A stretch of DNA of 64,000 bases from Capitulum mitella (Eukaryota; Arthropoda; Thecostraca; Pollicipedomorpha; Pollicipedidae), in contig CP099854.1 of NCBI GenBank assembly GCA_030062745.1, positions 15,668,376 to 15,732,375 of the forward strand. The letters are read 5' to 3'. Made by a program: the position numbers and the translations under genes. Under the pieces are notes generated by a model. That model searched no databases, was not told where the DNA came from, and saw only the letters and a program-made list of their open reading frames with translations. Positions 9,867-61,455 of the stretch are shown here, one piece after another (within the stretch, counting starts at the first letter, position 1; each line of letters starts with the position of its first letter).

Positions 9867-10375
9867 GTGACTCTGTGAGAGTGTGCCATTGTTGTGGTCC
9901 GGCCGGAGTCCGGTACTCTGTGAGAGTGTGCCATTGTTGTGGTCCGGCCGGGGCCCGGTACTCTGTGAGAGTGTGCCATTGTTGTGGTCCGGCCGGGGTC
10001 CGGTACTCTGTGAGAGTATGCCATTGTGGTGGTCCGGCCGGGGCCCGGTACTCTGTGAGAGTGTGCCATTGTTGTGGTCCGGCCGGGGCCCGGTACTCTG
10101 TGAGAGTGTGCCATTGTTGTGGTCCGGCCGTGGTCCGGTACTCTGTGAGAGTGTGCCATTGTTGTGGTCCGGCCGGGGTCCGGTACTCTGTGAGAGTGTG
10201 TCATTGTTGTGGTCCGGCCGGGGTCCGGTACTCTGTGAGAGTGTGCCATTGTTGTGGTCCGGCCGGGGTCCGGTACTCTGTGAGAGTGTGCCATTGTTGT
10301 GGTCCGGCCGGGGTCCGGTACTCTGTGAGAGTGTGCCATTGTTGTGGTCCGGCCGGGGCCCGGTACTCTGAGACC
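9867..10375 (+). repeat. 45-bp minisatellite, about 11 copies
   Basis: The unit starts GGTACTCTGTGAGAGTGTGC and is exactly 45 bases, repeated about 11 times with very few differences between copies. Because 45 is divisible by three, several frames on both strands stay open and encode 15-residue repeats (for example YSVRVCHCCGPAGVR on plus, MAHSHRVPDPGRTTT on minus). No start context, splice sites or known domain supports coding. Confidence 0.9.
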
Positions 10376-26800: not shown

Positions 26801-29800
26801 TCTACGGAATCATAATGGGAGGCATCGATTGCAATGGCCTTATCAAGTTCAATGGATGTTAGTGAAATCGATTGGGGAATGAACCCATTTCATTTTGAGT
26901 CGGGATCGGAGAATCAGTTCATCAAGCCACGAATCGGATTCGCAATGGATCCCCTCACGATTTTTGAGATTGAATATTGCGAGAGTATTTGCATGCTTAT
27001 TTCCAACCACTGGCAATTTCGGCCGAGATAACATGTCATTGCGTTCTGATCGCGGTTTTGGTTGGGCGCTATCGCCTCCCTCAGCTGCCCGTGTTCCACA
27101 GCACTATTTGCGGCGCGCTCAGCGCCAAGTTCGGGCTCCAGCCGCCAGATGTCTCCGGCCGCCGGCGGCGTCGCCAGCAGGCGGCGCCCCAGTCGCGGCG
27201 CCGCCGCCAGTGGGCGGTCGGCGCACGCAACATCACGGTCGGCTGCGTGGGCAAGGACACGGTGTACACGCTGCACGACCTAGTGGCCGGGCCGAGTTAC
27301 CGGCTCACCGTGTTCGGCCTCTACACGCACAGCAACGTCAGCTTCTCGTACGGCGAAACCAAGTTCCGGTGAGCCGCGGGCGCCGGACCGGACCGGACAG
27401 GCCGGGCAGCTCCCGACTGGCGTACGGCGTGAGCTATGGAGGTGGCCTGACAGGAAATATCAGGCTAGCATTGACCAGATATGGCAGAGGAATATCGCTT
27501 CTGTCACATCAACGGTAAAATCTGGTCTGTTTGGCTTCGTGACCTTTACGTCCTTCGTGACTTGGGTATGAGGTTGGACTTTGGACTCTGTGACGGTTCG
27601 TCAAGGCCAGCGACCCCTGTGATCTCTGTGAACTCCGTGATTCCTATGGCCTCCGTAACCCCTGTGACCCTCGTGATCCCTATGACCCCTGTGACCTCTG
27701 TGACCTAGGTGAACCAGGCATGAGGGCCTATCGGGCTTAATGGCAATCCCTCAGGGTCAGCTGACCTCTGCGACCAGGGTATGAGAGCCTGTCGGACTCA
27801 GTGGCAGACCATCAGGGCCAGCTGACCCCTGTGACCTCCGTGACCCAGGTATGAGGACCTGTCGGACTCGGTGACGGTCAACCAGGGTCAGTTGACCCCT
27901 GTATGGTCAGCCAGGGTCAGCTGACCTCCGTGACCCAGGCATGAGGACCTGTCAGACTCGGTGACGGTCAGTCAGGGCCAGCTGACCCCTGTGACCTCCG
28001 TGACTCAGGTATGAGGACCTGTCGGACTCGGTGACGGTCAACCAGGGTCAGTTGACCCCTGTATGGTCAGCCAGGGTCAGCTGACCTCCGTGACCCAGGC
28101 ATGAGGACCTGTCAGACTCGGTGACGGTCAGTCAGGGTCAGCTGACCCCTGTGACCTCCGTGACCCAGGTATGAGGACCTGTCGGACTCGGTGACGGTCC
28201 GTCAGGGCCAGCTGACCCCTGTGACCTCTATGGCCCAGGTATGAGGACCTGTCGGACTCGGTGACGGTCAGTCAGGGCCAGCTGACCCCGGTGACCTCTG
28301 TGACCCAGGTATGAGGACCTGTCGGACTCGGTGACGGTCAGTCAGGGCCAGCTGACCCCGGTGACCTCTGTGACCCAGGTATGAGGACCTGTCGGACTCG
28401 GTGACGGTCCGTCAGGGCCGGCTGACCCCTGTGACCTCTATGGCCCAGGTATGAGGACCTATCGGACTCGGTGACGGTCAGTCAGGGCCAGCTGACCCCG
28501 GTGACCTCTGTGACCCAGGTATGAGGACCTGTCGGACTCGGTGACGGTCAGTCAGGGCCAGCTGACCCCGGTGACCTCTGTGACCCAGGTATGAGGACCT
28601 GTCGGACTCGGTGACGGTCCGTCAGGGCCGGCTGACCCCTGTGACCTCTATGGCCCAGGTATGAGGACCTGTCGGACTCGGTGACGGTCCGTCAGGGCCA
28701 GCTGACCCCTGTGACCTCTATGGCCCAGGTATGAGGACCTGTCGGACTCGGTGACGGTCCGTCAGAGCCGGCTGACGCGGCTTCGTCTGACCCAGGTATG
28801 AGGACCTGTCGGACTCGGTGACGGTCCGTCAGGGCCAGCTGACCCCTGTGACCTCTATGGCCCAGGTATGAGGACCTGTCGGACTCGGTGACGGTCCGTC
28901 AGGGCCGGCTGACCCCTGTGACCTCCGTGACCCAGGTATGAGGGCCTGTCGGACTCGGTGACGGTCCGTCAGGGCCGGCTGACGCGGCTTCGTCTGACCC
29001 AGGTATGAGGACCTGTCGGACTCGGTGACGGTCCGTCAGGGCCGGCTGACGCGGCTCCGTCTGACCCCCGCACGGCCGGTGCGCCGGCTGCGCCTGAAGC
29101 CGCCGCGCCGTCCGTCGTCCACCGGCGCTCTTCACTACTACGTCGCCTCGTGCGGCGGCCGGCTGCGGCTCAGGGTGCTGCGGGGCCGCCGGCGGCCGGC
29201 AGAGGTCCAATCGGCGCAGGTGGTGAACGGCGCGCTGGTCTCCGGCAACGATACGGCCGGCTGGTACCAGTTCGAGCTGGAGCTGGCGGCGGCCGGCGGC
29301 GCCGGCACGGTGGCCGAGTTTCGCGCCGCCTGGCGGGCCGGTCGGCTGCGGCTGGCCCGGCTGCCCGACCGGACCGGAGGTCAGGCAGGCCAGCCGGCGG
29401 CGGCGGCGCCGGCTCCAACTCGGCTGCGGCGACCTGGCGCTGCAGGTGAGCAGAGGCGCCGGCCGCCGCGTCGGCGCTGGCTGAGGCGGCGGCCTCCGCG
29501 TTGGCGCTGGCTGAGGCGGCGGCCGACGCGGCGGGTGCAGACGACGCTCCGGCTGTAGACGATGCTTTGGCGGCGGCTCACATTCCAGCCGCAGACGACA
29601 CTACGGGGCTAGCACTCCAGCACCAGACGACACTACGGGGCTAGCACTCCAGCACCAGACGACAATACGGGGCTAGCACTCCAGCACCAGACGACAATAC
29701 GGGGCTAGCACTCCAGCACCAGACGACAATACGGGGCTAGCACTCCAGCACCAGACGACACTTTGGCCGTGGCAGACACTCCAGCCTCTGATCACACTCC

Positions 29801-32800: not shown

Positions 32801-34377
32801 TGTGCAGGTGCCTTGCTCCAGCGGCCCGCCGGCTGCGCCTCCTCCTGGAGTGTATGTCTGGGTGTGTGTTGGTGTGCAGATCCCGCGCTCGAAAGGCCGC
32901 CGGCTGCAGTACCGCCTCCTCCTGAAGTGTGTCTGTGTCTGGGTGCTCGGCTGCAGTACTGCCTCCTTTTGGGGTGGTTTTTGTGTTGGTGTGCAGATCC
33001 CGCGCTCGAAAGGCCGCCGGCTGCAGTAATGCCCGCTTCTGGAGTGTGTGTCTGTGTGTGTTGGTGTGCAGATCCCGCGCTCGAAAGGCCGCCGGCTGCA
33101 GTAATGCCCGCTTCTGGAGTGTGTGTCTGTGTGTGTTGGTGTGAGATCTAAAGGCGCCTGGAGTCTCGTCCCCTGGAGCCCGACAACAGCGGCAGGATCG
33201 GTCGCCGCTTCAAATCGCCCTCCATATGCGGTCTGGACACGCGTCTCGAGCGGCATCCGGCCAACCTGACCCTGTGCGACTCCAGCAGGAACCTCAGGAG
33301 AGGGTGAGCTAAACTGACCCATCCGGCCAACCTGACCCTGTGCGACTCCAGCAGGAACCTCAGGAGAGGGTGAGCTAAACTGACCCATCCGGCCAACCTG
33401 ACCCTGTGCGACTCCAGCAGGAACCTCAGGAGAGGGTGAGCTAAACTGACCCATCCGGCCAACCTGACCCTGTGCGACTCCAGCAGGAACCTCAGGAGAG
33501 GGTGAGCTAAACTGACCCATCCGGCCAACCTGACCCTGTGCGACTCCAGCAGGAACCTCAGGAGAGGGTGAGCTAAACTGACCCATCCGGCCAACCTGAC
33601 CCTGGGCGACCACTCCAGCAGGAACCTCAGGAGAGGGTGAGTTAAACTGACCCATCCGGCCAATCTGACCCTGGGCGACCACAGCAGGAACCTCATGAGT
33701 CGATGCAGGAACCTCAGGAGGTAATGACTAGCATGAGCCTGTAGGTGCGGTATGCGAGACGACGAGGTCGCTTACGTATTTTCCTTGGCGTCGTGGGTCG
33801 AGTTCTCGAAACCTGGATGGCGCTGAAATAATTGTGCTGTTGGATGGTAGTGCTGGGGCTTAAACGCACCGGTTTAGTGCGCCGCGCCGTCGTTCTTTCT
33901 GACCGGGGGATGGTGCTGCAGTGGCGTCGTTTGGTGACGGCGTTTGTTGACGCGTGTCCCCAGGAAGCGGGTTGAGGTGATATTCCGGAACCTGGAGCCC
34001 GGCCAGATGTACGTCGTCCGCGCCATGGTGCGCTCTCAGGGCGGCCGGTTCCGGCACTACAATCTGACGCAGGTGAGCCAGGCCAATCCGGCCGGACTGT
34101 CTCGTCACCTCACCTGGCCTCATCTCATCTGGTCGCTTCTCATCTCACCGAGGAAGTGTTCGCGGCTGGGCTAGTGTTGTCCGCTCTGTGCGCCGTCGGG
34201 TCACGGCTGCTGCGATATTAGCCTCTGGTGCCTGATGACGTCACGGCGGCTGGTTGGTGTGGGTGGCGGGACGACTCAGAGTTGGAATAGCTGGCTGTAG
34301 GCGGCGCTGGTCCCGTCCACCGGACGCGAAGATTCGGACTCTCTGTCTTTCAGATTTCAAGGGCGTGTCAGGGTTAA
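17635..34377 (+). CDS. NDNF/nord-like secreted protein, multi-exon gene (5' exon missing)
   Basis: Nine coding segments (17635-17840, 18123-18229, 25719-25880, 26360-26489, 27102-27368, 29003-29445, about 32880-33303, 33964-34072, tentative 34354-34377) follow the domain order of NDNF/nord proteins. That order is signal peptide, the conserved N-terminal region with a VTPC motif, a first FN3 domain split over two exons, a central conserved region, a second FN3-like domain, and a short C-terminal tail with a Cys. All use GT-AG introns, and phases agree at every junction except around exon 7. The summed length (~530 residues) is close to that of vertebrate NDNF. Several N-glycosylation sequons (NIT, NVS, NDT, NLT) fit secretion. 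Family knowledge: NDNF acts extracellularly on neurons and growth-factor signalling, and fly Nord modulates BMP signalling. The function here is inferred from homology read by eye. Exon 6 has a frame conflict and exon 7 looks broken, so the locus could be a damaged allele or misassembled. Confidence 0.8.
18123..18229 (+). CDS. NDNF-like exon 2: VTPC block
   Basis: Acceptor TTTGTTCCTCAG precedes 18123. The split Arg codon joins exon 1 in phase. The exon encodes FLYSHCEEGSPVSLVVTPCS followed by a short beta-strand-rich tail ending in DIVR. The VTPC motif and its surroundings are the clearest NDNF signature in the gene. It ends in phase 1 at donor AGAG|GTTTGT. Confidence 0.85.
18230..19767. other. 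Intron sequence of the NDNF-like gene
   Basis: First part of a ~7.5 kb intron. No coding exon was recognised. The intron further holds elements B2, A1 and B3 and a Penelope RT fragment. Confidence 0.5.
19768..21264 (+). mobile_element. Family B element, copy B2, interrupted by a solo LTR candidate
   Basis: Begins CCCGCGCCCGACTGG and ends GGGGGGCGGG. The flanks are ATAT on both sides rather than the TTAA seen at other copies. Removing the 289-base insert at 20119-20407 plus one copy of its 5-base duplication gives ~1.2 kb, the usual family length. Orientation is forward, inside the NDNF-like intron. Confidence 0.75.
20119..20407. mobile_element. Candidate solo LTR, 289 bp
   Basis: A clean insertion into element B2: the other copies lack it, and it is bracketed by a 5-base direct repeat CTGAA (20114-20118 and 20408-20412). 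The insert starts TGTGGT and ends ACCACA, the TG...CA form of LTRs. The 5-base duplication fits LTR-retrotransposon integration. Its parent family is not identified. Confidence 0.65.
21561..22200 (-). pseudogene. Penelope-like element reverse transcriptase fragment
   Basis: On the minus strand: SLFTNIPVQDTIQI near 22,150, then KVGTAMGSPL near 21,985, then KYVYDVFVNVPDEQQMMRLQ near 21,875, and FKTRVFRKSTGVGR at about 21,700. These are the RT landmarks of Penelope-like elements in the right order and spacing. The catalytic YVDD has become YVYD, and the frame changes between the GSPL and YVYD blocks, so the copy is dead. No GIY-YIG endonuclease or LTR-like flank was seen. Confidence 0.8.
22201..22532. 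other. Unassigned intron sequence
   Basis: AT-rich sequence between the Penelope fragment and element A1. Nothing recognised. Confidence 0.4.
22537..23753 (+). mobile_element. Family A non-autonomous piggyBac-like element, copy A1
   Basis: 1,217 bases flanked by TTAA at 22533-22536 and 23754-23757. Termini are CCCTATTCCCGG and its exact reverse complement. A second internal copy of ATTCCCGGCAGGGG lies ~30 bases in from the left end. TTAA duplication plus CCCT...AGGG ends are characteristic of piggyBac elements. No transposase is encoded. The interior carries many TGACCT half-sites, including TGACCTTTGACCT and TGACCTTGAGGTCA near 23,088-23,130. Confidence 0.9.
23833..25054 (+). mobile_element. 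Family B element, copy B3
   Basis: 1,222 bases with TTAA on both sides (23829-23832, 25055-25058). It begins CCCGCGCACGACCGTCGG and ends CAGTCGGGGACGGA. This is the best preserved copy of the family and defines its ends. It contains TGACCTAGGTCA and TGACCTGAGGTCA around 24,888-24,922. It lies only 76 bases after element A1. Confidence 0.85.
25059..25718. other. Intron sequence before NDNF-like exon 3
   Basis: Unique sequence with a short A/C-rich stretch at 25,460-25,560 and several CACGTGAC/GACGTCA motifs at 25,560-25,700. No exon was recognised. Confidence 0.4.
25719..25880 (+). CDS. NDNF-like exon 3
   Basis: Acceptor GACCGCCAG before 25719 is chosen because it restores phase with exon 2 (G|AG). 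It encodes MVGPGQVIYSERRGQ, then SYDVNITALQDTYVHFLAS, matching the NDNF segment between the VTPC block and the first FN3 domain. It contains a sequon (NIT). It ends in phase 1 at a strong donor, CTGG|GTGAGT. Confidence 0.8.
25881..26359. other. Intron between NDNF-like exons 3 and 4
   Basis: No additional exon or repeat was recognised. Confidence 0.5.
26360..26489 (+). CDS. NDNF-like exon 4: first half of FN3 domain 1
   Basis: A 130-base exon found by homology. Acceptor GTCCACCAG precedes 26360, and the split Asp codon joins exon 3 in phase. It encodes NRADISWAPASFGGQ and ALHYCLITSPSLHF. The Trp of strand B and the YC of strand C are FN3 landmarks in NDNF. It ends in phase 2 at CTTCAG|GTGAGA. 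Confidence 0.8.
26490..27101. other. Intron between NDNF-like exons 4 and 5
   Basis: Contains a degenerate GGAATCG/CGATTCC repeat between about 26,660 and 26,960. Nothing else was recognised. Confidence 0.5.
27102..27368 (+). CDS. NDNF-like exon 5: second half of FN3 domain 1
   Basis: Acceptor GTGTTCCACAG precedes 27102; an upstream CAG at 27084 was rejected because it breaks phase. It encodes STICGALSAKFGLQPP, a basic stretch rich in Arg and Gln, then NITVGCVGKDTVYTLHDL and PSYRLTVFGLYTHSNVSF. The last two blocks match strands F and G of the NDNF FN3 domain. It ends in phase 2 at TTCCG|GTGAGC. Confidence 0.85.
27369..27740. other. Intron start with degenerate GTGACC repeats
   Basis: Short irregular repeats of CCTGTGACC and CTCCGTGA type grade into the acceptor-derived array. 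Confidence 0.5.
27741..29002 (+). repeat. Acceptor-derived tandem array upstream of NDNF-like exon 6
   Basis: About 17 copies, mostly 70 bases with some of 67 or 90. Each carries an AG followed by GTATGAGGACCTGTCGGACT and the next ~35 bases, which are the first bases of exon 6 together with its acceptor. ATG of the unit falls at 27781, 27851, 27941, 28011, 28101, then every ~70 bases to 29005. The 67-base units still contain CTGACGCGGCT and CGTCTGACCC, as exon 6 does. They are therefore the closest relatives of the exon, and the 70-base units are derived. Confidence 0.9.
29003..29445 (+). CDS. NDNF-like exon 6: central conserved region and start of FN3 domain 2
   Basis: Begins after CTGACCCAG; the split Arg codon joins exon 5 in phase. 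It encodes YEDLSDSVTVRQGRL, then LHYYVASCGGRLRLRVLRGR and DTAGWYQFELELA. This matches the NDNF central block, including the single Cys. The frame then runs through Arg/Ala-rich sequence to LARLPDRTGG. Near the end another frame gives RLQLGCGDLALQ, which fits the start of the second FN3 domain and ends in phase 0 at CTGCAG|GTGAGC. The original frame ends in phase 1. A one-base insertion or two-base deletion between about 29,370 and 29,410 would reconcile them. Confidence 0.75.
29446..29770 (+). repeat. Tandem repeats directly after exon 6
   Basis: Two 39-base copies of GGCGCTGGCTGAGGCGGCGG type (29,470-29,540) are followed by about five copies of a 32-base unit beginning GCTAGCACTCCAGCACCAGA (29,607-29,765). 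Both lie within the intron. Confidence 0.85.
29771..31165. other. Intron sequence with a TGTTCTG repeat
   Basis: Between 30,078 and 30,345 the sequence is an irregular minisatellite of TGTTCTGCTCTG and TGTGCTGCTC units. The remainder is unique with no exon recognised. Confidence 0.6.
31166..32405 (+). mobile_element. Family B element, copy B4
   Basis: 1,240 bases with TTAA at 31162-31165 and 32406-32409. Starts CCCACATCCCACTGG (diverged) and ends CAGTCGGGGACGGG. It lies in the NDNF-like intron between exons 6 and 7. Confidence 0.8.
32410..32796. other. Intron sequence
   Basis: Unique sequence before the exon 7 array. Nothing recognised. Confidence 0.4.
32797..33146 (+). repeat. Acceptor-derived array at NDNF-like exon 7
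   Basis: Four or five diverged units of ~72-117 bases. Each has GTGTTGGTGTGCAG followed by exon-like sequence ATCCCGCGCTCGAAAGG, with exon-like starts at 32808, 32880, 32997, 33072 and 33146. In the 32880 copy the exon-like part reads IPRSKGRRLQYRLLLK, matching strand C of FN3 domain 2. In the 32997 and 33072 copies the same place has a TAA stop. Confidence 0.75.
32880..33303 (+). CDS. NDNF-like exon 7 (FN3 domain 2), apparently broken
   Basis: The body, from about 33157 to 33303, encodes RLESRPLEPDNSGRIGRRF, then SICGLDTRLERHPANLTLCD and SSRNLRR. This matches NDNF between strands C and F of the second FN3 domain, with two Cys and a sequon (NLT). It ends in phase 2 at AGAGG|GTGAGC, matching exon 8. 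The 5' part (phase 0, IPRSKGRRLQYRLLLK) is found only in the upstream array unit at 32880. The unit touching the body has GAG instead of CAG, a deletion, and an in-frame TAA at 33149-33151. The complete exon is therefore not present as one continuous piece. The coordinates given span both parts. Confidence 0.55.
33254..33722 (+). repeat. Donor-derived tandem array at the 3' edge of exon 7
   Basis: About seven copies of a 66-base unit (one of 69) starting CATCCGGCCAACCTGACCCT. The first copy is the real 3' end of exon 7. Each unit repeats the last ~50 exon bases, the donor AGAGG|GTGAGC and 15 intron bases. Donor GT positions are 33304, 33370, 33436, 33502, 33568 and 33637, with a variant near 33721. 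Reading through any donor meets TGA at once. The minus-strand frame stays open because the unit is 22 codons long. Confidence 0.9.
33964..34072 (+). CDS. NDNF-like exon 8: end of FN3 domain 2
   Basis: Acceptor CGTGTCCCCAG precedes 33964. The split Gly codon (GG|G) joins exon 7 in phase. It encodes KRVEVIFRNLEPGQMYVV, then RAMVRSQGGRFRHYNLTQ. The L-PG-Y pattern is the strand F hallmark of NDNF FN3 domains. It ends in phase 0 at ACGCAG|GTGAGC. Confidence 0.8.
34354..34377 (+). CDS. Tentative terminal exon of the NDNF-like gene
   Basis: A strong acceptor, CTCTCTGTCTTTCAG, is followed in phase 0 by seven codons, ISRACQG, and TAA. NDNF proteins end a few residues after this point with a basic tail and a Cys, which this resembles. 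A poly(A) signal follows at 34467. The exon is too short for a secure call. Confidence 0.4.
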   Translation: MSRACQG

Positions 34378-41980: not shown

Positions 41981-44900
41981 TTAGAGTTCTGCTAGGTGTG
42001 TGTCATTTAGGTATCTGAATAGCAGCTGTAGTAGGTCTGGGTGCTGGTTACCCAGTAGGGTACACAGGGTAAGCTGAATTTTCTTTTGTTGGCAGAAGGC
42101 CTTAATGGGTCGTCTTTGTGTTTCGAAATCCCTACATTCCAGCAGGAGGTGACTTATGTTAAGTGGTGTGTTGCATGTGTGGCATTGTGGTGCTTGATAA
42201 GAGCCGTCCTCTAAGAGTGGTTGTGTGTATTTTGTGCGACCCGTTCTAAGTCTGGTGAGGACGACTTCTTGGCGCCTGCATTTTTGATTTGATGTGTCCC
42301 AGGCGCAAAGTGTGGGTTTGATATCGTACAGGTGTGCGTGGTGATTTTGTGTCCAGGTTTTCTGTTGGTGTTTACGGATGTGTTGTTGCAGTGCGGCCTT
42401 GCAGTCGTCGAGTGAAAATTTGGTATCAAAGCATGTGTCGAATGCTAGTGACTGTTTCGCAATCTGGTCTGCTCGCTCGTTGCTTCTGATGTTAGCGTGT
42501 CCCGGTATCCAAAGGAAGGAAATGTCGTTTACGTTAGGGAACACTTGCTGTTGTATGCAATCAATGATGTAGTGTGATGGGTCGGCCGTATTGCTGATGG
42601 CTTGTAGGACCGATTTTGAGTCAGAGCAGACAACTACGTTAACCATGTTGTGTCTGATCGCCATGCGAATGGCTATCAGTATGGCCATGGCCTCTGCAGT
42701 GAAGATCGATGTTTGGTCTGGGAGGCGGTTGCCGAGCTCGAAGCCAGGCGATGTGAGTCCAAATCCGACTTTGTCGTCGATTTTGGACCCGTCTGTGTAT
42801 ATGAATGGTTTGTGGTCGTTAACAGTGGTGTATTCGCGGAATTTGGCGAGTATCTCTGTTTGAGTTATGTCTGTTTTACGTTCTGTGAGAAGATATTCGA
42901 TAGTGGGTGGTTTGTGAATCCAGAATGACCTGAGGGGCGGTCTGGGTGCAGTGGGCGGTACGGCAAACTGAAGGTCTGCCAGAGCCGTGCTTGTTTGAAC
43001 GTGAAAAGGTGGGCGTTTGCGTGCTGCACGGCTCTTGTCTAGTCTGTCGTGTTTGAAGCAAGACTGTGCCGGATGGTTTTCTGTAGTCTGAACTGTCATG
43101 TAGTACCGACACAGTTGTTGTGTTCGTCTGATCTGTAGGGATGGCATGTCCGCGTCGGCCAGAAGGCTGACAGTCGGGGTACTGTGTAATGCTTCAGTGG
43201 CTGCTCGAATGCTGTGATTTTGTATGGCTTCCAGTTTTTGTGCTAGGGACGGAGAGATGCTGTTGAAAATAAAGCTGTTGTATTCCAGAATGGGTCGAAT
43301 GATGGCCTTGTAGAGTCTGAGTAGTGTTTGTCTGTCTCCGCCCCAGTCTGTTCCTGAGAGGCAGCGGAGGATGTTGGTGCGTTTTGCGCATCGTTTCGTG
43401 GTGTCTTTGATGTGTTGTTGGAATGTCAGTTTTTCGTCGAGGTGGATTCCGAAAAATTTGAAACTTTTAACCTGTTCTATGGCTTCGCCATGGATATTCA
43501 GGTTCAGGGTGAGTGGTCCGGTGGCGCGAGCGTATGCAACTACTGCGGATTTTTCTGCGGACAGGGTGAAGCCCCATTTGTTACACCACTTTGCAATGTG
43601 GTCCAGTCCGGTTTGAACGGTGTTTTCGGCTTTGAAGAAGCAGTGGTTAGTGGCCCAAATGGCCACGTCGTCCGCAAAAAGTGAATAGTGTAGTGTTCTG
43701 CAGTGTAAATCGTCAAACATGTCGTTAATCATGATGAGAAAGAGTGTTGGTGAAATGACGCTTCCTTGTGGAAGGCCCTGGTCTTGCGCTCTCTGGTCTG
43801 GAGGTGGTGTTGCCGCATCTGACCTGTACTGTTCTATCCCGGAGGAAGTTCAGTAGAAAGTGTGCTAGGTGTCCGCGTAGACCTAGCTTGTAGAGTTTGT
43901 GTGCAAGTGCGGACTTGTGGACTCGGTCGAATGCGGCCGTGATGTCTAAGTATGCTGCTACTGTGGTGCGTTTGTAATTCATGCCGTGTTTGATGTCGTG
44001 TACTATGCGTATGAGATTGTCTGCGGTGGACTTGTGTTTTCTGAAACCGCATTGGTGTTCGTCGAGCAGTTTTTTGTTTTCCAGAAAGTGTCGGAGGCGT
44101 GTGTTTACCATGCGCTCGACGAGTTTGCTGGCACAGCTGGTGGGAGATATTGGTCTGTAGCCTTTTGGCTGAGTGTGGTCTTTTTGGGGCTTGGGCAAGG
44201 GAATGATTATACTTTGTCGCCAATTTGGCGGAAAGGAGTCGTTTAAGAAGAGATTGTTAATGGCCGTCAACAGGTACGTTAAAGATACTTTGCTCAAGTG
44301 TCTGAAGAGTTGGTAGTGAATGTCGTCCGGCCCAACCGACGTGTTGCGGCACTTGCTGAGGGCAAGGCGTAATTCATACATGGTGAATGGAGTGTTGTAT
44401 GTTTCAGTGTTAGTCGACTGAATGTTTGCCGCAAGTGCTTGAAGTGAGTTTATTAGTGCTGTGTCGTAAGTGTGGTTTGCGGAGACGTTGGTGTAATGAG
44501 TTTTGAAGTGTTCCACGACGTCGCCAGGTTCTGTGATGCGCTGATTGTTTATTGTCAGTTGTGGAAAAGGACCTGGCTGAGGGCGTTTGAGGTGGAAGCG
44601 TTTAATGAGTGTCCAGATGGTGCTTGTGGGTGTAAATCTATTAAATGTGGCTGCATGTTCCCGCCAAGCTGTTCTCCCCGCTCCACGTATGGTTGAGCGA
44701 CAGAGTGCTTTTGCTCGGCGGTACTCCAGGAGATGCGCTTCGCACATCACCCTTTTGTACCGCTTCAAAGCTCTGCGTCGTTTTGCGATGGCTTGTTGGC
44801 ATTCCGGGGTCCACCAAGGCGCTGATGCCTTATTTTTTTTTTTTTTTTTTTTTGGGACGGTGGCCTGTGCTGCTGAGCTGATGGCTCCTAAGACCTCACT

Positions 44901-45681
44901 TATGGTGTGGTCCGTTGAATTTACTAATGCGAGGTCCACCATAGCCTCGTATTTTGGTCAGTCCGCCCTTTTCAAATTCCATGTGGGTGCGTGGAGTTTG
45001 GTATGGTGGATTGCAGCGGAGCTGAGCTTAATGTGTATTGGGTAGTGGTCGCTCAGTCCGGGGTCGTCCTCTACCGACCATTCAAAAAGGTGACTAATTC
45101 GCGGGGTGCAGCACGAAATGTCTATTGCGCTGTCTACGGCCCCTAATCTGGGGTTATGTCTGGTGGCGGCCCCGGTGTTTAGCAGTGTAAGATTTTAATT
45201 CTCGATAAATGTGTGTATCATGTGTCCTCTATTGGTTGTTATGTGGCTCCCCCAGCTGGGGTGGTGCGCGTTTATGTCTCCCAGAATGAGCACTGGGTGT
45301 GGTAGTTGTGAGATGAGGGTGGTGAGGTCGTGCAGTGTGGGGTCTGGTTCTGAGGGTGGGAGGTATATTGAAATAATGGTGGTTTGTATGTGGTTGATTT
45401 TTAGGTTTATGGCTACGCAATTTATGTGACTGTTTACGTTAATTCTGCTGTGGGGGATGCTGTTGGCAATGAGAATGGCAGCTCCCCCTCTTCTGGTTGG
45501 CCCGTTGACATTGTCAACGTGCCACGTGAAGTTTGGAATGTGAGTCCAGTAGGAATCTGTGTCTCGCAGATGTGTCTCCTGGAGGGCGGCCAGGAGCAGG
45601 TTTTTGCGTTGTCAGTTCAGATTTGAATTCGGTGAAGCGAGATGAAATGCCGCCCACATTCCATTGGAGAATGTGTGTCAT
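41981..45681 (-). pseudogene. Non-LTR retrotransposon ORF2 (EN-RT-RNase H), disrupted
   Basis: Starts at ATG 45681 with LQWNVGGISSRFTEF (AP endonuclease start). A frameshift at the A5 run at 45601-45605 precedes LLLAALQETHL. LILGDINAHHPSWGS and SDHYPI complete the endonuclease. A TAA stop lies at 45195-45197, after which the same frame resumes. RT motifs follow: SVGPDDIHYQLFRHL, TVAAYLDITAAFDRV, then a second frameshift at about 43,785-43,800 just before QGLPQGSVISPTLF, and the catalytic FADD at about 43,670. RNase H starts at FIYTDGSKIDDKVGFGL, with ECRDFE after a CCHC-like motif near the end. The poly-T at 44833-44853 encodes a Lys tract. The protein cannot be made whole. Confidence 0.85.
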
Positions 45682-45684
45682 GAT

Positions 45685-47346
45685 TTAAGACTTGGGGACT
45701 GGAGTGGGACAGATGCGGCGTGTCGTGGGGGTGTCGGAGACCGAATCCGCAAGGTTTAGGGGTCTGCGGAGACGGCGTCGGGTCATGGCTGGCGGTGTGA
45801 CACGCCGGACCAGAGAGGTGGTGCTGGTTTTGGATCGGGTTATTGGTCCGGCTTGGGGCTCAGTCTGGCAGGCCACGTTTGCTGTGGATGGTCTGTCACA
45901 CTGAGTCCCGGTGGATGTCGTGGAGGCGGGAGCGGGGGTCTGAGAGGATTTGGATTGGGGCTTTCTTGGGACTTGGTGGGGGAGGGGTTTGGGCCCGGGT
46001 GGAGGGAGGGGGGGAACTGGGTGGAGGAGAGGAGTTTGAGACCTGGTGTTGGGCGAGCGGGTTGGCGGGGTGTGGTCATCGGGAAAGGGTATGGCCACTC
46101 GGGGCGGCCGGTTGGGGGCTGGAGCGACCGTGGGTGGGGGGGGGGGCAGGCCTGGCTTCGCGCCGGGGGTGCGTCGCCAGGCCCAGGGTGGGCCGAGGGG
46201 AAGGTGTGGGGGGTGAGGGAGCAGGCCTGGCTTTGCGCCTGGAGCGCGTCGCCAGGCCCAAGGGGGGCCAAGGGGAGGGAAGTGCTGAAGGGATCGGGGG
46301 TGGGGAGGGTGAGGGAGCAGGCCTGGCCTTGCGTCGGCAGCGCATTGCCAAGCCTGGGGGAAGCCGGGAGGTGGGTGGAGGAGGGGACGACGTTGGAGGG
46401 AGCGGGGATGGGGAGGGTGGGGGAGGAGGCCTGGTCGCGCTCTCGCGGGGCCAGTGCCGGTGCGCAGGGTTGGGTAAGGGGGACGGGGCGGAAGAACAGG
46501 ACGTCGGACGCCCGGGGCGGGAGGGGGGGGGGACGGTGGTCCGGTGGCGGTGGCAGTCGGAGAGGGGTGAGGGAGGTTCAAGGACGAGCGTGCGGCGGCG
46601 GCATAGGAGCGCCCGGGAGTGAGCAGCCGCCGTGCTGCGGAGAAGGATATGTCCTTAATGGCCGCGAGCTCGTGGATGTCGCTTTCCCGCAGCCATACGG
46701 GACATTGTGGGTCGGAGGAACGATGTGCGCCGCCACAGGCCGCACATTTGCGGACCGCGGAGGTGCACGTTGTGGTGGAATGTGGCTCCGCGCACCGAGC
46801 ACAGCGTGCGCTGGGTGAAGCGCAAGCCTGTTCTCCATGGCCGTAGCGCTGGCAGCGGTGGCAGCGGACGGGACGGGTGATGTGAGGGAATACTTTGTGC
46901 TGGATGTGGTTGATGGTGATGTGTGATGGTCGGGTTTTTGTGGGGAAGGACAGTGTGAGGATAGTGGTCTGCCTCCAGCGCCTTGGAGCAGAGAACAAAG
47001 ATGCTCCTGTTCCCTGGAGGGCTGCGGCGATGTCTTCGTGACTGGAAGTATTGAACTCTGGCGTGTTGATGGTGCCTCGGCTGCTGTTGATTGAGTTGTG
47101 GAGTGTGAAGCTGCACTTTTGTGAGTTAAATGTTGTGAGTGACAGCAGCTTCTTGGTGTCTTTTGAGCTTGTGGTGCGCACAATGATGTGTTTGTGGTGT
47201 CTGGTGACGGTGAGGTTTTTGTGTTGTACGTGGTGTTCGAGGGTCTTCGTGAGTGTGAATGCCGACTCCTTGGCTATGTCGTGAGTGGAGTCCGTGTAGA
47301 TGCCGACGACGAAAGAGCCGTCGTCGGCGGTGGCAGGATAGGCCAT
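45685..47346 (-). CDS. Non-LTR retrotransposon ORF1 (gag-like), 553 aa, intact
   Basis: One uninterrupted frame. The N-terminal half holds a region with KNLTVTRHHKHIIVRT, resembling the RNA-binding fold of I/jockey gag proteins. Around residues 175-235 are three zinc-knuckle-like motifs: CHRCQRYGHGEQAC, CARCAEPHSTTTC and CAACGGAHRSSDPQC. The C-terminal half is very proline-rich, with an internal repeat (PGLLPHPPHPRSLQ twice and PPWAWRR...GAKPGL twice). It would coat the element RNA. The stop codon is 3 bases upstream of the ORF2 ATG. Confidence 0.85.
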   Translation of the reverse strand: MAYPATADDGSFVVGIYTDSTHDIAKESAFTLTKTLEHHVQHKNLTVTRHHKHIIVRTTSSKDTKKLLSLTTFNSQKCSFTLHNSINSSRGTINTPEFNTSSHEDIAAALQGTGASLFSAPRRWRQTTILTLSFPTKTRPSHITINHIQHKVFPHITRPVRCHRCQRYGHGEQACASPSARCARCAEPHSTTTCTSAVRKCAACGGAHRSSDPQCPVWLRESDIHELAAIKDISFSAARRLLTPGRSYAAAARSSLNLPHPSPTATATGPPSPPPPAPGVRRPVLPPRPPYPTLRTGTGPARARPGLLPHPPHPRSLQRRPLLHPPPGFPQAWQCAADARPGLLPHPPHPRSLQHFPPLGPPWAWRRAPGAKPGLLPHPPHLPLGPPWAWRRTPGAKPGLPPPPPTVAPAPNRPPRVAIPFPDDHTPPTRSPNTRSQTPLLHPVPPLPPPGPKPLPHQVPRKPQSKSSQTPAPASTTSTGTQCDRPSTANVACQTEPQAGPITRSKTSTTSLVRRVTPPAMTRRRLRRPLNLADSVSDTPTTRRICPTPVPKS

Positions 47347-47510
47347 GTTTTTAGGGAGGTGATTGTGTTTTGTTAGTGGCTGTGGGGCACTAGTGGCCCC
47401 AGAAAGTGAAAGACCGGCTTCGTTGACCCCTTAGGCCCAGGCGTTAGCCCAGGGGCCTACCTGCCCTGGCCGCAATGGCCCCAAGCAGGGGGGTATACAC
47501 CGTTAGGTTT

Positions 47511-52633: not shown

Positions 52634-52639
52634 TTTATT
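52634..52639 (-). terminator. Poly(A) signal of the polyglycine peptide gene
   Basis: AATAAA on the minus strand, 66 bases after the stop codon of exon 2. Confidence 0.65.
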
Positions 52640-52705
52640 GCATTGCATGGACCAAGTCCTCCATTTAGTCTTCTACAAATCTTCTACGGGGCGATGTTGG
52701 CATTC

Positions 52706-52824
52706 CTAGCCCCGACGTCTGAAAAAACGTCTGAAAGAGCGACCGCCGCCACCACCTCCGCCTCCTCCACCTCCGCCTCCTCCGCCACCACCGCCGCCGC
52801 CTCCACCTCCGCCACCACCACCAC

Positions 52825-52861
<37 letters not shown>

Positions 52862-52905
52862 GCCACCGCCTCCTCCTCCTCCTCCTCCGCCGCCGCCACC
52901 GAATG
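52706..52905 (-). CDS. Exon 2 of polyglycine peptide gene: Gly53 and Arg/Phe tail
   Basis: 200 bases including TAG. Two leading bases (CA) complete the split Pro codon. The 53 Gly codons run from 52900 down to 52742. The eleven-residue tail (52741-52709) is unlike the repeat and uses varied codons, so it is not part of the expansion. Confidence 0.7.
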
Positions 52906-53866
52906 CTGGAGGTAAGAAGCGTGTGCAGAGTTTACGCGCAAAGAGACAAGTCCGTGAGAGATCAGAATAATATCAACTACTATCTGGCCAGAAATTGTTG
53001 TCACAGTCCTTTTCGGTAATAACTTTGAACGACTTGACCAATATGTTAAAAAATCCCCACATTCGCGTTAAGAAGAGTGACCTTATTTTCTGCGAAGTTC
53101 AAATACGTAATAAACTACTAAAATAAAGCATGCCCACCATTGACCAGTAATGCAACTTTGTTCAGCAGCGAGGGACTTCCTGCGTAGAGATTTGTTTAAG
53201 AAGTGTCGAAAAACGGAAGAAACGTAGCAAACCTTACGGCTTTCTGATAAGCTCATCCCTGAAAGTATGCTAGCAGCTTGGCTGGCACCATAGCAGTTGA
53301 AGATGGCGCAGTAAACTTTCCACCATGGCAATGAAAAATATTATCCTTAAGATCAATGGTAAAATCGTTTTATTTTGTATTTATTCCATATGAAACTGAG
53401 GCGCCAATTACGTCGGGATCAATATAGACGCAGGCAAAATTTTATGCAATCCAGCCGATTCTCTCAAAAACTACTTGAGCACGTGACTGCGGCAACAGTT
53501 TCTGGTCAGCTGTTCTGTTTTTGTCTTATTAAGATAAAAAACATCCATTCGGATCGAGCGAACCAGCCTGGCAGTACATATCTAATGGACAACCACTTCG
53601 CAACCACCTGCCATCATTTTCTCAGCAAGAACTGCCCGAGAATGATGCAAATGTAACACGGCCACCCTCATACATCTCTGGGCACTGAATCCCATCAGGC
53701 AAGCAGCGTCCCAATCGCGTATATGGCACATCAGGGGCGCAAATAAAAGTCCAAAACCATCAGTCGATGACGCACCGGACAGTGCAAGGCACTTACGAGC
53801 AGCGCTGGCCAGCGCCAGCACCGAGAGCAGCAGCGCCACCAGCAGCGGGAGACTGAACCACCTCAT
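52706..53866 (-). CDS. Secreted polyglycine peptide with cationic Arg/Phe tail (two exons)
   Basis: Exon 1 (53866-53797) encodes a 23-residue signal peptide beginning MRWFSLPLLVALLLSVL and ending ALASAA. It ends in phase 1 at a consensus donor, GCTC|GTAAGT. Exon 2 (52905-52706) follows acceptor CTTCTTACCTCCAG. The join makes Pro, then Phe, then 53 consecutive Gly codons (mixed GGC, GGT, GGA), then RSFRRFFRRRG and TAG. The total is 89 residues; cleavage near ASA|AP would leave about 66-67. A TATA box lies 41 bases upstream of the ATG and AATAAA 66 bases after the stop, so all elements of a small gene are present and in phase. The tail has six Arg and three Phe, and the final Gly could serve as an amidation donor. 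By analogy with glycine-rich invertebrate peptides it could be antimicrobial or structural; this is inference, and no family was recognised. The triplet run could also be an expanded microsatellite in an older gene. Confidence 0.7.
52910..53790 (-). other. Intron of polyglycine peptide gene
   Basis: About 890 bases, GT-AG. No other exon was recognised on either strand. Confidence 0.5.
53797..53866 (-). CDS. Exon 1 of polyglycine peptide gene: signal peptide
   Basis: 70 bases. Met-Arg-Trp start, a hydrophobic Leu/Val/Ala core and small residues at the expected cleavage site. The donor matches GTAAGT exactly. Confidence 0.75.
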
Positions 53867-53906
53867 GGCGAGGGCTCGGAAGTGCCGGTCTGCGGACGCG
53901 CCTGCG

Positions 53907-53913
53907 TTTTATA
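53907..53913 (-). promoter_or_regulatory. TATA box of polyglycine peptide gene
   Basis: TATAAAA on the minus strand, preceded by GC-rich sequence (CCGG). A start site ~30 bases downstream would fall near 53,882, giving a 5' leader of about 16 bases. Confidence 0.65.
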
Positions 53914-59469: not shown

Positions 59470-61455
59470 TGATCCTGTATCACATGTGATACAGTGGGTA
59501 CTAAGGGTGCTAAATTTGGCCTGCGGACTGTCCAAACTGTCCGCATTCATCCTTTCAGTTATGTCATGATGTCCTATGGAGAATCTCTTCAGTTCATGAA
59601 CATTTATTTCTTTTGAAACGCGACTAAGCAGTTTCTTGTTAAGGAGCAAGCCCACATCGCATTTCGCACATTTTGCGTAGATGAATTGAGGAATGGCGGC
59701 AGGACACTGCTTAAACTTCTGCCTGGACAGTGCCCACGGAGGAAGTCGTGTCGAACCGCACGTGTTTCGACGTGAACGACACAGATATCTTTCTTCTTTT
59801 CGGCCGCTCCGGGCTTTAACGAGGCCTGTCCCGACTCTTGGTGGCTCCGGTCTCCGTGGGGGTGCCTCCGATTCGTCCCTGGCATTGTCTGAGAGGCATT
59901 TCCTTCCTTGATCCCATCTGCTTCTGGTGCCGTCTATTACAGCAGCCAGGAGTTCATGAGGGCGATCGTGACGGAATGCCAAAAATCTGTTCAAGTGTCG
60001 CCTGCGAGACCTAATGTTGAAGCGATACAGAGACAGTAACATGGCAAGGACGTCGATGTCTCCCATGAATTCGTTGTGATTGATCCGCATGACTCTTGGC
60101 TTTCCTGTCCCACCGACGTGCAGTAGCCAGAGGCTCTAAGACAACATAGGAAGACAACAGGTTTACACACTTGCTGTTTAGGCATCTGACCGCCGGATGC
60201 CTTTGCTCTGCTCCAGTCTGTGATCAAATGATCCTCGTCCATCCTTCTTCAGGAACTTGTCGTCATTCACGTAGCCTTCTTAGAATCTGTTGCTCCGTAT
60301 GGTACCAACAAAGTGAATTATTTCCGGTGCATCACGAACGGTAGGGACGGGAAAAATTGGCCGCGTAGACCGTAGGGTTTTGTCCAGCAGGCAATGTATT
60401 TCCGAGCTTAGCGACAACATCCGCAAGGACTCCCAGGACAGGGGTTGCGGACTTATCAGCAGAGCATTGCTGCACGTCGAGGTAGAAGAGCCGCTGGCTC
60501 TAACTCGACCCCAGATTTCGAATCCCTGTTTGTGAAACTTGCCCGGTATGTACACACGGAGGTGGGACTTCCTTTTGAACACCACCATCATTTCGTCTAT
60601 TAGGTGGCATGCCTCGGGTTTTACCGCCAGGCAGCGTTCTCTGAGAAAATTCGGCCAGGGCCCTATTTTCCAAAGCTTATCTTTTTTTGTTTCTCCCGTA
60701 GCAGTGTTGTTCCCCTGTAAGTGAGGTAAGGTCAAAATCTTCTCGAACCTGCTTCTGGGCACCTGGGTTCCACCTGGCGTCTGCTACTGCTGGGTGCCTG
60801 GTACCATTATCCCAATAGCAGCGTACCTTTGGGTTCACAGCAAGACCCATCAGCAAATGGATGCCGACAGCTTGTCTGATCTCCACCTCCGTGGTATTAA
60901 TGCAATGCCCATTCTTCTCCACAATGAAATTTTGTCTAGACAGGGAGCAGTTCCACCATTTCTTCGGTCATGAACCGTCTGAAGTACTGGTAAGGAGATT
61001 GGTGCAAGGCATCTTCAGGAGGCCGGTGCAGATTTTCTTTAACTCTTTGTCTGATGGGAGTTCGATGTCCTTTTTCCTTCAGACGTGCGAGCTTGCCGCG
61101 TCTCGCGAGGATGCATGTTCACGTTTCGGCTGCCGAAATGGGCCAGGAAAGGTGGCATCAACAGGAAGGTCATCACTGCGGTCACCACCTGGAGACACTT
61201 GCCCTTGTACATGACGGTTTATTTCTTCAACTGGTCTCGCACACAGAATTATTGTTATTTTTTTCGTCATCGGGATCGAATTCATTCCCAGACGGCAGTC
61301 CCTCGAGATCACTGGTGTCACCGTCAGGTGAGGGTAGGATTTCATCAATGCTCAAGAGCTGTAGGCGAGGTATTGGGAAAAGAGGGATTTGGTTTGTATG
61401 TCTGGAAGGCCAAGAGAAGCGCCCCTGGAACCATCGTATTTTCAGATACATGAGA
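59470..61455 (-). pseudogene. piggyBac-type transposase (DDE_Tnp_1_7), decayed
   Basis: On the minus strand, an acidic N-terminus (SDLEGLPSGNEFDPDD) at about 61,340-61,290 is followed by EIRQAVGIHLLMGLAVNPKV and CYWDNGTRHPAVADARW at 60,880-60,780. Next come RSRFEKILTLPHLQGNN, KDKLWKIGPWPNFL, then LIDEMMVVFKRKSHLRVYIP and GKFHKQGFEIWG down to about 60,500. The C-terminal part, NHNEFMGDIDVLAMLLSLYR, lies at about 60,080, and a Cys-rich end (KCAKCDVG, CITCDTG) at 59,660-59,475. The blocks lie in different frames with gaps, so it is inactive. It sits between family A copies A3 and A4, but a direct relation is not shown. Confidence 0.85.

Follow-up and report, generated by a model that had tools for sequence, protein, structure and literature searches.

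The window analysed here is a 64,000-nt stretch (C16:15668376-15732375; G+C ~51%) of the Capitulum mitella genome, which comprises 477 Mb in 16 contigs and of which ~272 kb was examined closely. On its minus strand, at 52634-53913, lies a small two-exon gene (herein referred to as copy W) for which the original prediction had proposed a TATAAAA box, a signal exon, a GTAAGT donor, a phase-matched acceptor, a polyglycine exon with a tail, a stop codon and an AATAAA signal, all of which were found (window positions; ATG, splice sites, intron, tail, stop and polyadenylation signal as read from the sequence, exon 2 from splicing and translation):

53913-53907, minus strand: TATA box TATAAAA, which begins 47 nt ahead of the ATG
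53866, minus strand: ATG
53866-53797, minus strand: coding part of exon 1, the signal peptide MRWFSLPLLVALLLSVLALASAA plus the first base of a Pro codon (seven genome matches)
53796-53791, minus strand: donor GTAAGT
53796-52906, minus strand: phase-1 intron of 891 nt, GTAAGT...CTTACCTCCAG
ending at 52906, minus strand: acceptor CAG
52905-52706, minus strand: coding part of exon 2, (P)F-Gly53-RSFRRFFRRRG-stop
52900-52742, minus strand: 53 consecutive GGN Gly codons (GGC, GGT or GGA, no GGG), varying at the third position only
52741-52709, minus strand: cationic tail RSFRRFFRRRG
52708-52706, minus strand: TAG stop
52639-52634, minus strand: polyadenylation signal AATAAA

Joining 53797 to 52905 gives a precursor of 89 aa, MRWFSLPLLVALLLSVLALASAA-PF-G53-RSFRRFFRRRG, whose Pro codon straddles the intron. 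The N-terminal segment is probably a signal peptide directing secretion, to judge from its basic start, hydrophobic core and A-S-A-A cleavage zone. The tail contains a 10-nt direct repeat (TTTCAGACGT at 52736-52727 and 52724-52715), which amounts to a four-codon duplication, SFRR/FFRR.

The surroundings of the gene include mobile DNA. Three of the 20 window ORFs submitted to Pfam matched at E 0.1 or better; a LINE-type element (41984-44957, minus strand) has a reverse transcriptase and an RNase H divided between two frames, the former represented by two window ORFs, and is adjoined by a long ORF lacking a Pfam match (45688-47430), and a piggyBac-like transposase fragment lies at 60283-60783 on the minus strand (DDE_Tnp_1_7, E 3e-10). 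Carriage of the gene by a mobile element was considered and rejected, as neither the LINE nor the piggyBac-like fragment spans the gene and copies from different subgroups of the family described below lack common flanks, except for the promoter core of copies B, C and D and of E, F and G. No Rfam family exceeded its threshold within the window. Minisatellites with units of 70, 45 and 66 bases (92-96% matches) occupy 28082-29050, 9870-10370 and 33254-33699, respectively, and a dispersed element with a minor ORF resembling MRPVSSSTRHKLSNGMLIFIVRPTV recurs in the window and in stretches L008, L015, L036 and L037, one occurrence being inside the long intron of copy B.

Searched against the 477-Mb genome, the signal exon matches at seven places, including copy W. 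The identical seven came back across the whole genome when the query was a 23-residue signal sequence or a paralog's promoter plus exon. All are on C16, at two sites 14 Mb apart: copies W, C, D and B at 15.72-15.92 Mb, and copies G, F and E at 1.23-1.28 Mb. In every one of the seven, a phase-1 intron, between 581 and 4022 nt long across the family, leads to an open polyglycine exon with an Arg end:

Copy W: exon 2 PF-G53-RSFRRFFRRRG
Copy B: exon 2 P-G10-W-G11-W-G11-RRR
Copy C: exon 2 P-G11-W-G10-RRR
Copy D: exon 2 P-G11-W-G11-W-G10-RRR
Copies E, F and G: exon 2 P-G22-RR

The precursors are 48-89 aa long and nearly pure Gly and Arg, and GGG is absent from the 205 exon 2 Gly codons counted across the seven genes. 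By eye, the acceptors of the six paralogs carry pyrimidine tracts and CTAA-type branch sites. The equal two-exon layout and phase of these six paralogs in the same genome back the predicted splice of a small secreted-type gene. Variation in repeat length that would break the frame of the tail had been named as a possible objection; among the paralogs, where this could be followed, glycine number lies between 21 and 53, and in all seven copies the reading frame continues unbroken as far as the Arg codons. The junction of Gly53 to RSFRRFFRRRG holds for copy W and fails as a definition of the family, because the other six copies end in RR or RRR: the family is defined, as far as its sequences tell, by polyglycine with a short Arg end, the RF-rich tail being copy W's own. 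The idea that the signal exon feeds other kinds of mature peptide was likewise discarded, as all seven lead to polyglycine. Copies E (C16:1272454, plus strand) and F (1280291, minus strand) are nearly identical (575/581 in their introns) and lie tail to tail; this pair is a recent inverted duplication. The window gene looks real, and it is one of a small family of secreted-type polyglycine peptides.

The promoters set copy W apart from its relatives. Copies B, D, E, F and G (five of the six paralogs, five of the seven copies) carry a CACGTG E-box that precedes the TATA box by ~21 nt, and copy C has TACGTGAC at the same place, one base changed. Copy W retains its TATA box and has no CACGTG within 400 nt upstream, so it may be regulated differently or less well; together with the RF-rich tail, the missing E-box suggests that its role, or the place where it is expressed, has changed.

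Several patterns separate the family from a chance microsatellite, a candidate rejected because third-position variation, signal exon and splice frame recur in seven copies. In the array of copy W (52743-52901), departures from the majority base of each codon phase number 0, 0 and 28, the 28 being third positions. Among 15 rows of period-3 arrays, seven belong to the polyglycine family, four to silk-like Gly-rich exons and four to other sequences. The family tracts vary at third positions only, save for the regularly spaced Trp codons of B, C and D, whose rows also show first-position departures, Trp codons among them. The four silk-like rows, which come from two copies, are biased toward one phase too (0,0,3; 0,4,12; 1,1,7; 0,0,4); of the four others, three have spread departures (0,6,4; 2,1,1; 7,3,6) and the fourth departs only once. 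We also scanned both strands of 23 stretches (~269 kb) for an ATG with a hydrophobic start and a GTRAG donor. Copy W and its six paralogs are the seven hits that combine phase 1, a TATA box and a hydrophobicity above 3.2, where the 3.2 line was chosen after the list was viewed and three further hits exceed it, lacking phase 1 or a TATA box.

Between the subgroups (W; B, C and D; E, F and G), exon 1 shows 83-91% identity. Copy W is 91% identical to copy B there, with flanks and intron not above the shuffled level. Alignment between subgroups gave 0.36-0.54 for the introns, the 150 nt upstream and the 250 nt downstream; shuffling one pair each 30 times, whole introns not included, gave means of 0.41-0.44 with maxima of 0.47-0.54. 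The upstream alignments between the BCD and EFG subgroups (0.51-0.54) exceed the shuffled upstream maximum of 0.48, a likeness that reflects a common promoter core; downstream, three comparisons (0.48-0.50) lie slightly above the shuffled maximum of 0.47. When copies of one subgroup are compared, exon change lags behind that of neighboring noncoding DNA in two of the three pairs tested, namely E-G (2/147 vs. 95/978 changes, P=9.5e-5) and B-D (9/183 vs. 107/629, P=6.5e-6); in C-D they are not slower (6/150 vs. 46/1464, P=0.8). Between subgroups, exon 1 gives no support for selection at the protein level, with pN about equal to pS (pS/pN of 0.05/0.10 for W-B, 0.10/0.14 for W-E and 0.16/0.10 for B-E). 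Because silent and replacement differences are about equal, exon 1 appears to be conserved at the DNA level, for which copy-to-copy conversion or a constraint on splicing or translation is a possible cause. Exon 2 of the E-G pair shows no changes at ~25 third positions, which by itself gives P=0.06. Copy W is without a close sister copy, and the third-position pattern is the measure of selection for it alone; coding selection on copy W is supported by its Gly codons, not proven.

Both family clusters also contain long Gly-rich, silk-like exons, in four copies:

C16:15737590-15737919 (L047:5291-5620), minus strand: silk-like exon, ~15 kb from copy W and ~5.2 kb past the window end
C16 near 1178472 (L052 ~1501-1887): silk-like exon with an open frame and GAPGAPGGGS repeats, collagen- or silk-like
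C16 near 1204291 (L039:4961-5507): silk-like copy, interrupted after the repeat region
C16 near 1255513 (L034:7014-7250): silk-like copy, frame broken after the Gly tract

The exon at C16:15737590-15737919, on the same strand as copy W, reads G25-SGFGGGGAGYYPYPGQGGFGGGGFAGAGGPGGG...AAAASSGGGAGFGVVCGQGQTGQSGYGPYG; its G25 is followed by GGFAGAGGPGGG repeats and AAAASSGGG, and it is open with a GTAAGC donor at its end. The 4.4 kb of L047 that lie upstream of it showed no signal exon, and its strand of L050 showed no phase-1 signal exon. Its distinctive C-terminal stretch matches, across the whole genome, itself and the 1178472 exon only. The 1204291 copy has a phase-1 signal-type exon (MRGLLVLVLLMAAAAAQSG) without a TATA box, an exon common in kind to this copy and the family. 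Matches between silk-like and family exons are confined to the Gly tract: outside polyglycine no sequence common to the two was found, and the signal exon matches only the seven family copies. A cuticle-gene cluster was also sought, and among the at least 150 Chitin_bind_4 matches listed (150 of 627 candidates scored), none lies on C16. These cuticle domains mark the host as an arthropod.

Comparison with characterized proteins placed the family near several systems. Snow flea antifreeze proteins have Gly-X-X repeats with disulfides and form a polyglycine/polyproline-II bundle. The family shares with them, and with polyglycine-II generally, a Gly-dominated chain that could pack as polyglycine-II, and the Trp residues of B and D, spaced 12 residues apart, might correspond to turns; unlike snow flea-type proteins, the family precursors contain no Gly-X-X repeat. 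A PDB sequence search with a D-type mature peptide gave no match. Four of the six distinct precursors were submitted for comparison with the Bomanin/DIM peptides (PF08194), and three of these four showed a similar signal-peptide start, a weak match (E 0.06-0.16; 12.6-14.0 bits vs. a curated cut-off of 20.8) limited to the signal region. Four exact strings from the family and its silk-like neighbor had no match in the literature searched, a body of text with most subscription papers outside its scope, and the top results of searches on polyglycine, Gly-rich peptides and barnacles included no such family.

We tentatively favor, at somewhat short of even confidence, the reading that the family encodes a self-associating polyglycine component of a secreted Gly-rich material, with a cationic end. 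Long polyglycine is poorly soluble and packs as polyglycine-I/II or beta assemblies, and it is this property, together with the silk-like neighbors at both sites, that leads us to favor a material. The peptide would be secreted via its predicted signal peptide, its polyglycine block would serve as the self-associating unit or filler of a cuticle, silk-like or cement-like material, and the Arg end would provide solubility in the secretory pathway, anchoring to anionic partners, or both. Six of the seven tails (RR or RRR) are without a hydrophobic residue, in which they seem unlike membrane-active peptides, and we count this for a material. The silk-like neighborhood is weak evidence of function because, of its four silk-like copies, two are broken, and a Gly-Arg-Arg end counts against a material, being typical of the sites at which hormones and antimicrobial peptides are amidated. 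Silk-like structural proteins are secreted and Gly-rich like the family, and so is a class of barnacle cement proteins (available part of PMC8371367); as described there, that class groups together by its glycine, alanine, serine and threonine, whereas the family is nearly pure Gly and Arg.

The main rival to a material is a Gly-rich cationic antimicrobial peptide of the acanthoscurrin, ctenidin or armadillidin type, stored in hemocytes, cut at the N-terminal Ala-Pro and the C-terminal Arg-Arg and amidated, with a cationic end (the RF-rich tail in copy W) that acts on microbial membranes; we regard this as possible, if doubtful. All seven precursors consist of a signal peptide, as judged by hydrophobicity and reading, and a small Gly-rich cationic mature part, as in acanthoscurrin, ctenidin, serrulin and armadillidin (the first two being likened by description, not by sequence), and RSFRRFFRRR of copy W is both cationic and aromatic. 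The endings G-RR, G-RRR or, in copy W, a terminal Gly would suit the C-terminal amidation that acanthoscurrins, ctenidins and serrulin carry (available part of PMC6784228), and armadillidins, as far as the available part of PMC7017220 describes them, also keep a recognizable signal peptide over differing Gly-rich mature parts. Gly makes up 72.3-72.7% of acanthoscurrins and 47.2% of armadillidin, which has a GGGF(H/N)(R/S) motif, according to the portion of PMC5031766 available. Where armadillidins and serrulin, in the accounts available, mix aromatic and cationic residues among the glycines, the family tracts are uninterrupted Gly apart from the Trp of B, C and D and bear their charges at the end alone, and no such interspersed repeat was seen in the family. 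Of these peptides armadillidin H and serrulin were aligned (one Gly too many in one of the queries) with no meaningful result, a 9-residue match at E 8.4 for armadillidin H and none for serrulin, and kB-like sites occur in four of the seven 400-nt upstream stretches, at differing positions. The same signal peptide and dibasic end after Gly would also fit a regulatory-peptide precursor converted by a carboxypeptidase and an amidating enzyme from Gly-Arg-Arg to an amidated signaling peptide; we consider this very improbable, as polyglycine offers almost no side chains to a receptor and the glycine count varies from 21 to 53 among copies.

A separate question is whether copy W is a decaying or non-expressed member of a real family, one that has an expanded repeat and a duplicated tail and lacks a promoter element. 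It has the longest Gly tract of the family, the 10-nt duplication in its tail and no sister copy, and it lacks CACGTG, as does copy C, which yet keeps TACGTGAC in place. Against decay, the frame is open, the splice sites are good and the TATA box and AATAAA are kept; the codon-phase departures of its array and the identity of its exon 1 to that of copy B, beside flanks and intron at the shuffled level, point the same way, and we judge decay to be unlikely. Returning to a secreted material, we note as a speculation, to which we give little credence, that copies E, F and G, after removal of Ala-Pro by a dipeptidyl peptidase, Arg trimming and amidation, would yield pure polyglycine of ~21 residues, such that cutting the Arg tag would switch solubility and trigger assembly of the material, copy W being a self-assembling antimicrobial variant with an RF-rich cation.

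Secreted Gly-rich arthropod peptides are known; what is new here is near-homopolymer glycine as an unusual trait. Long polyglycine is usually a linker or an expanded repeat inside larger proteins, and genes of the kind described here would tend to escape notice through short-peptide annotation and low-complexity masking. A dedicated family secreting near-homopolymer polyglycine with an Arg end would, if true, serve as a minimal natural model for how polyglycine assembles and as a candidate new class of Gly-rich defense or adhesive peptide in an arthropod.
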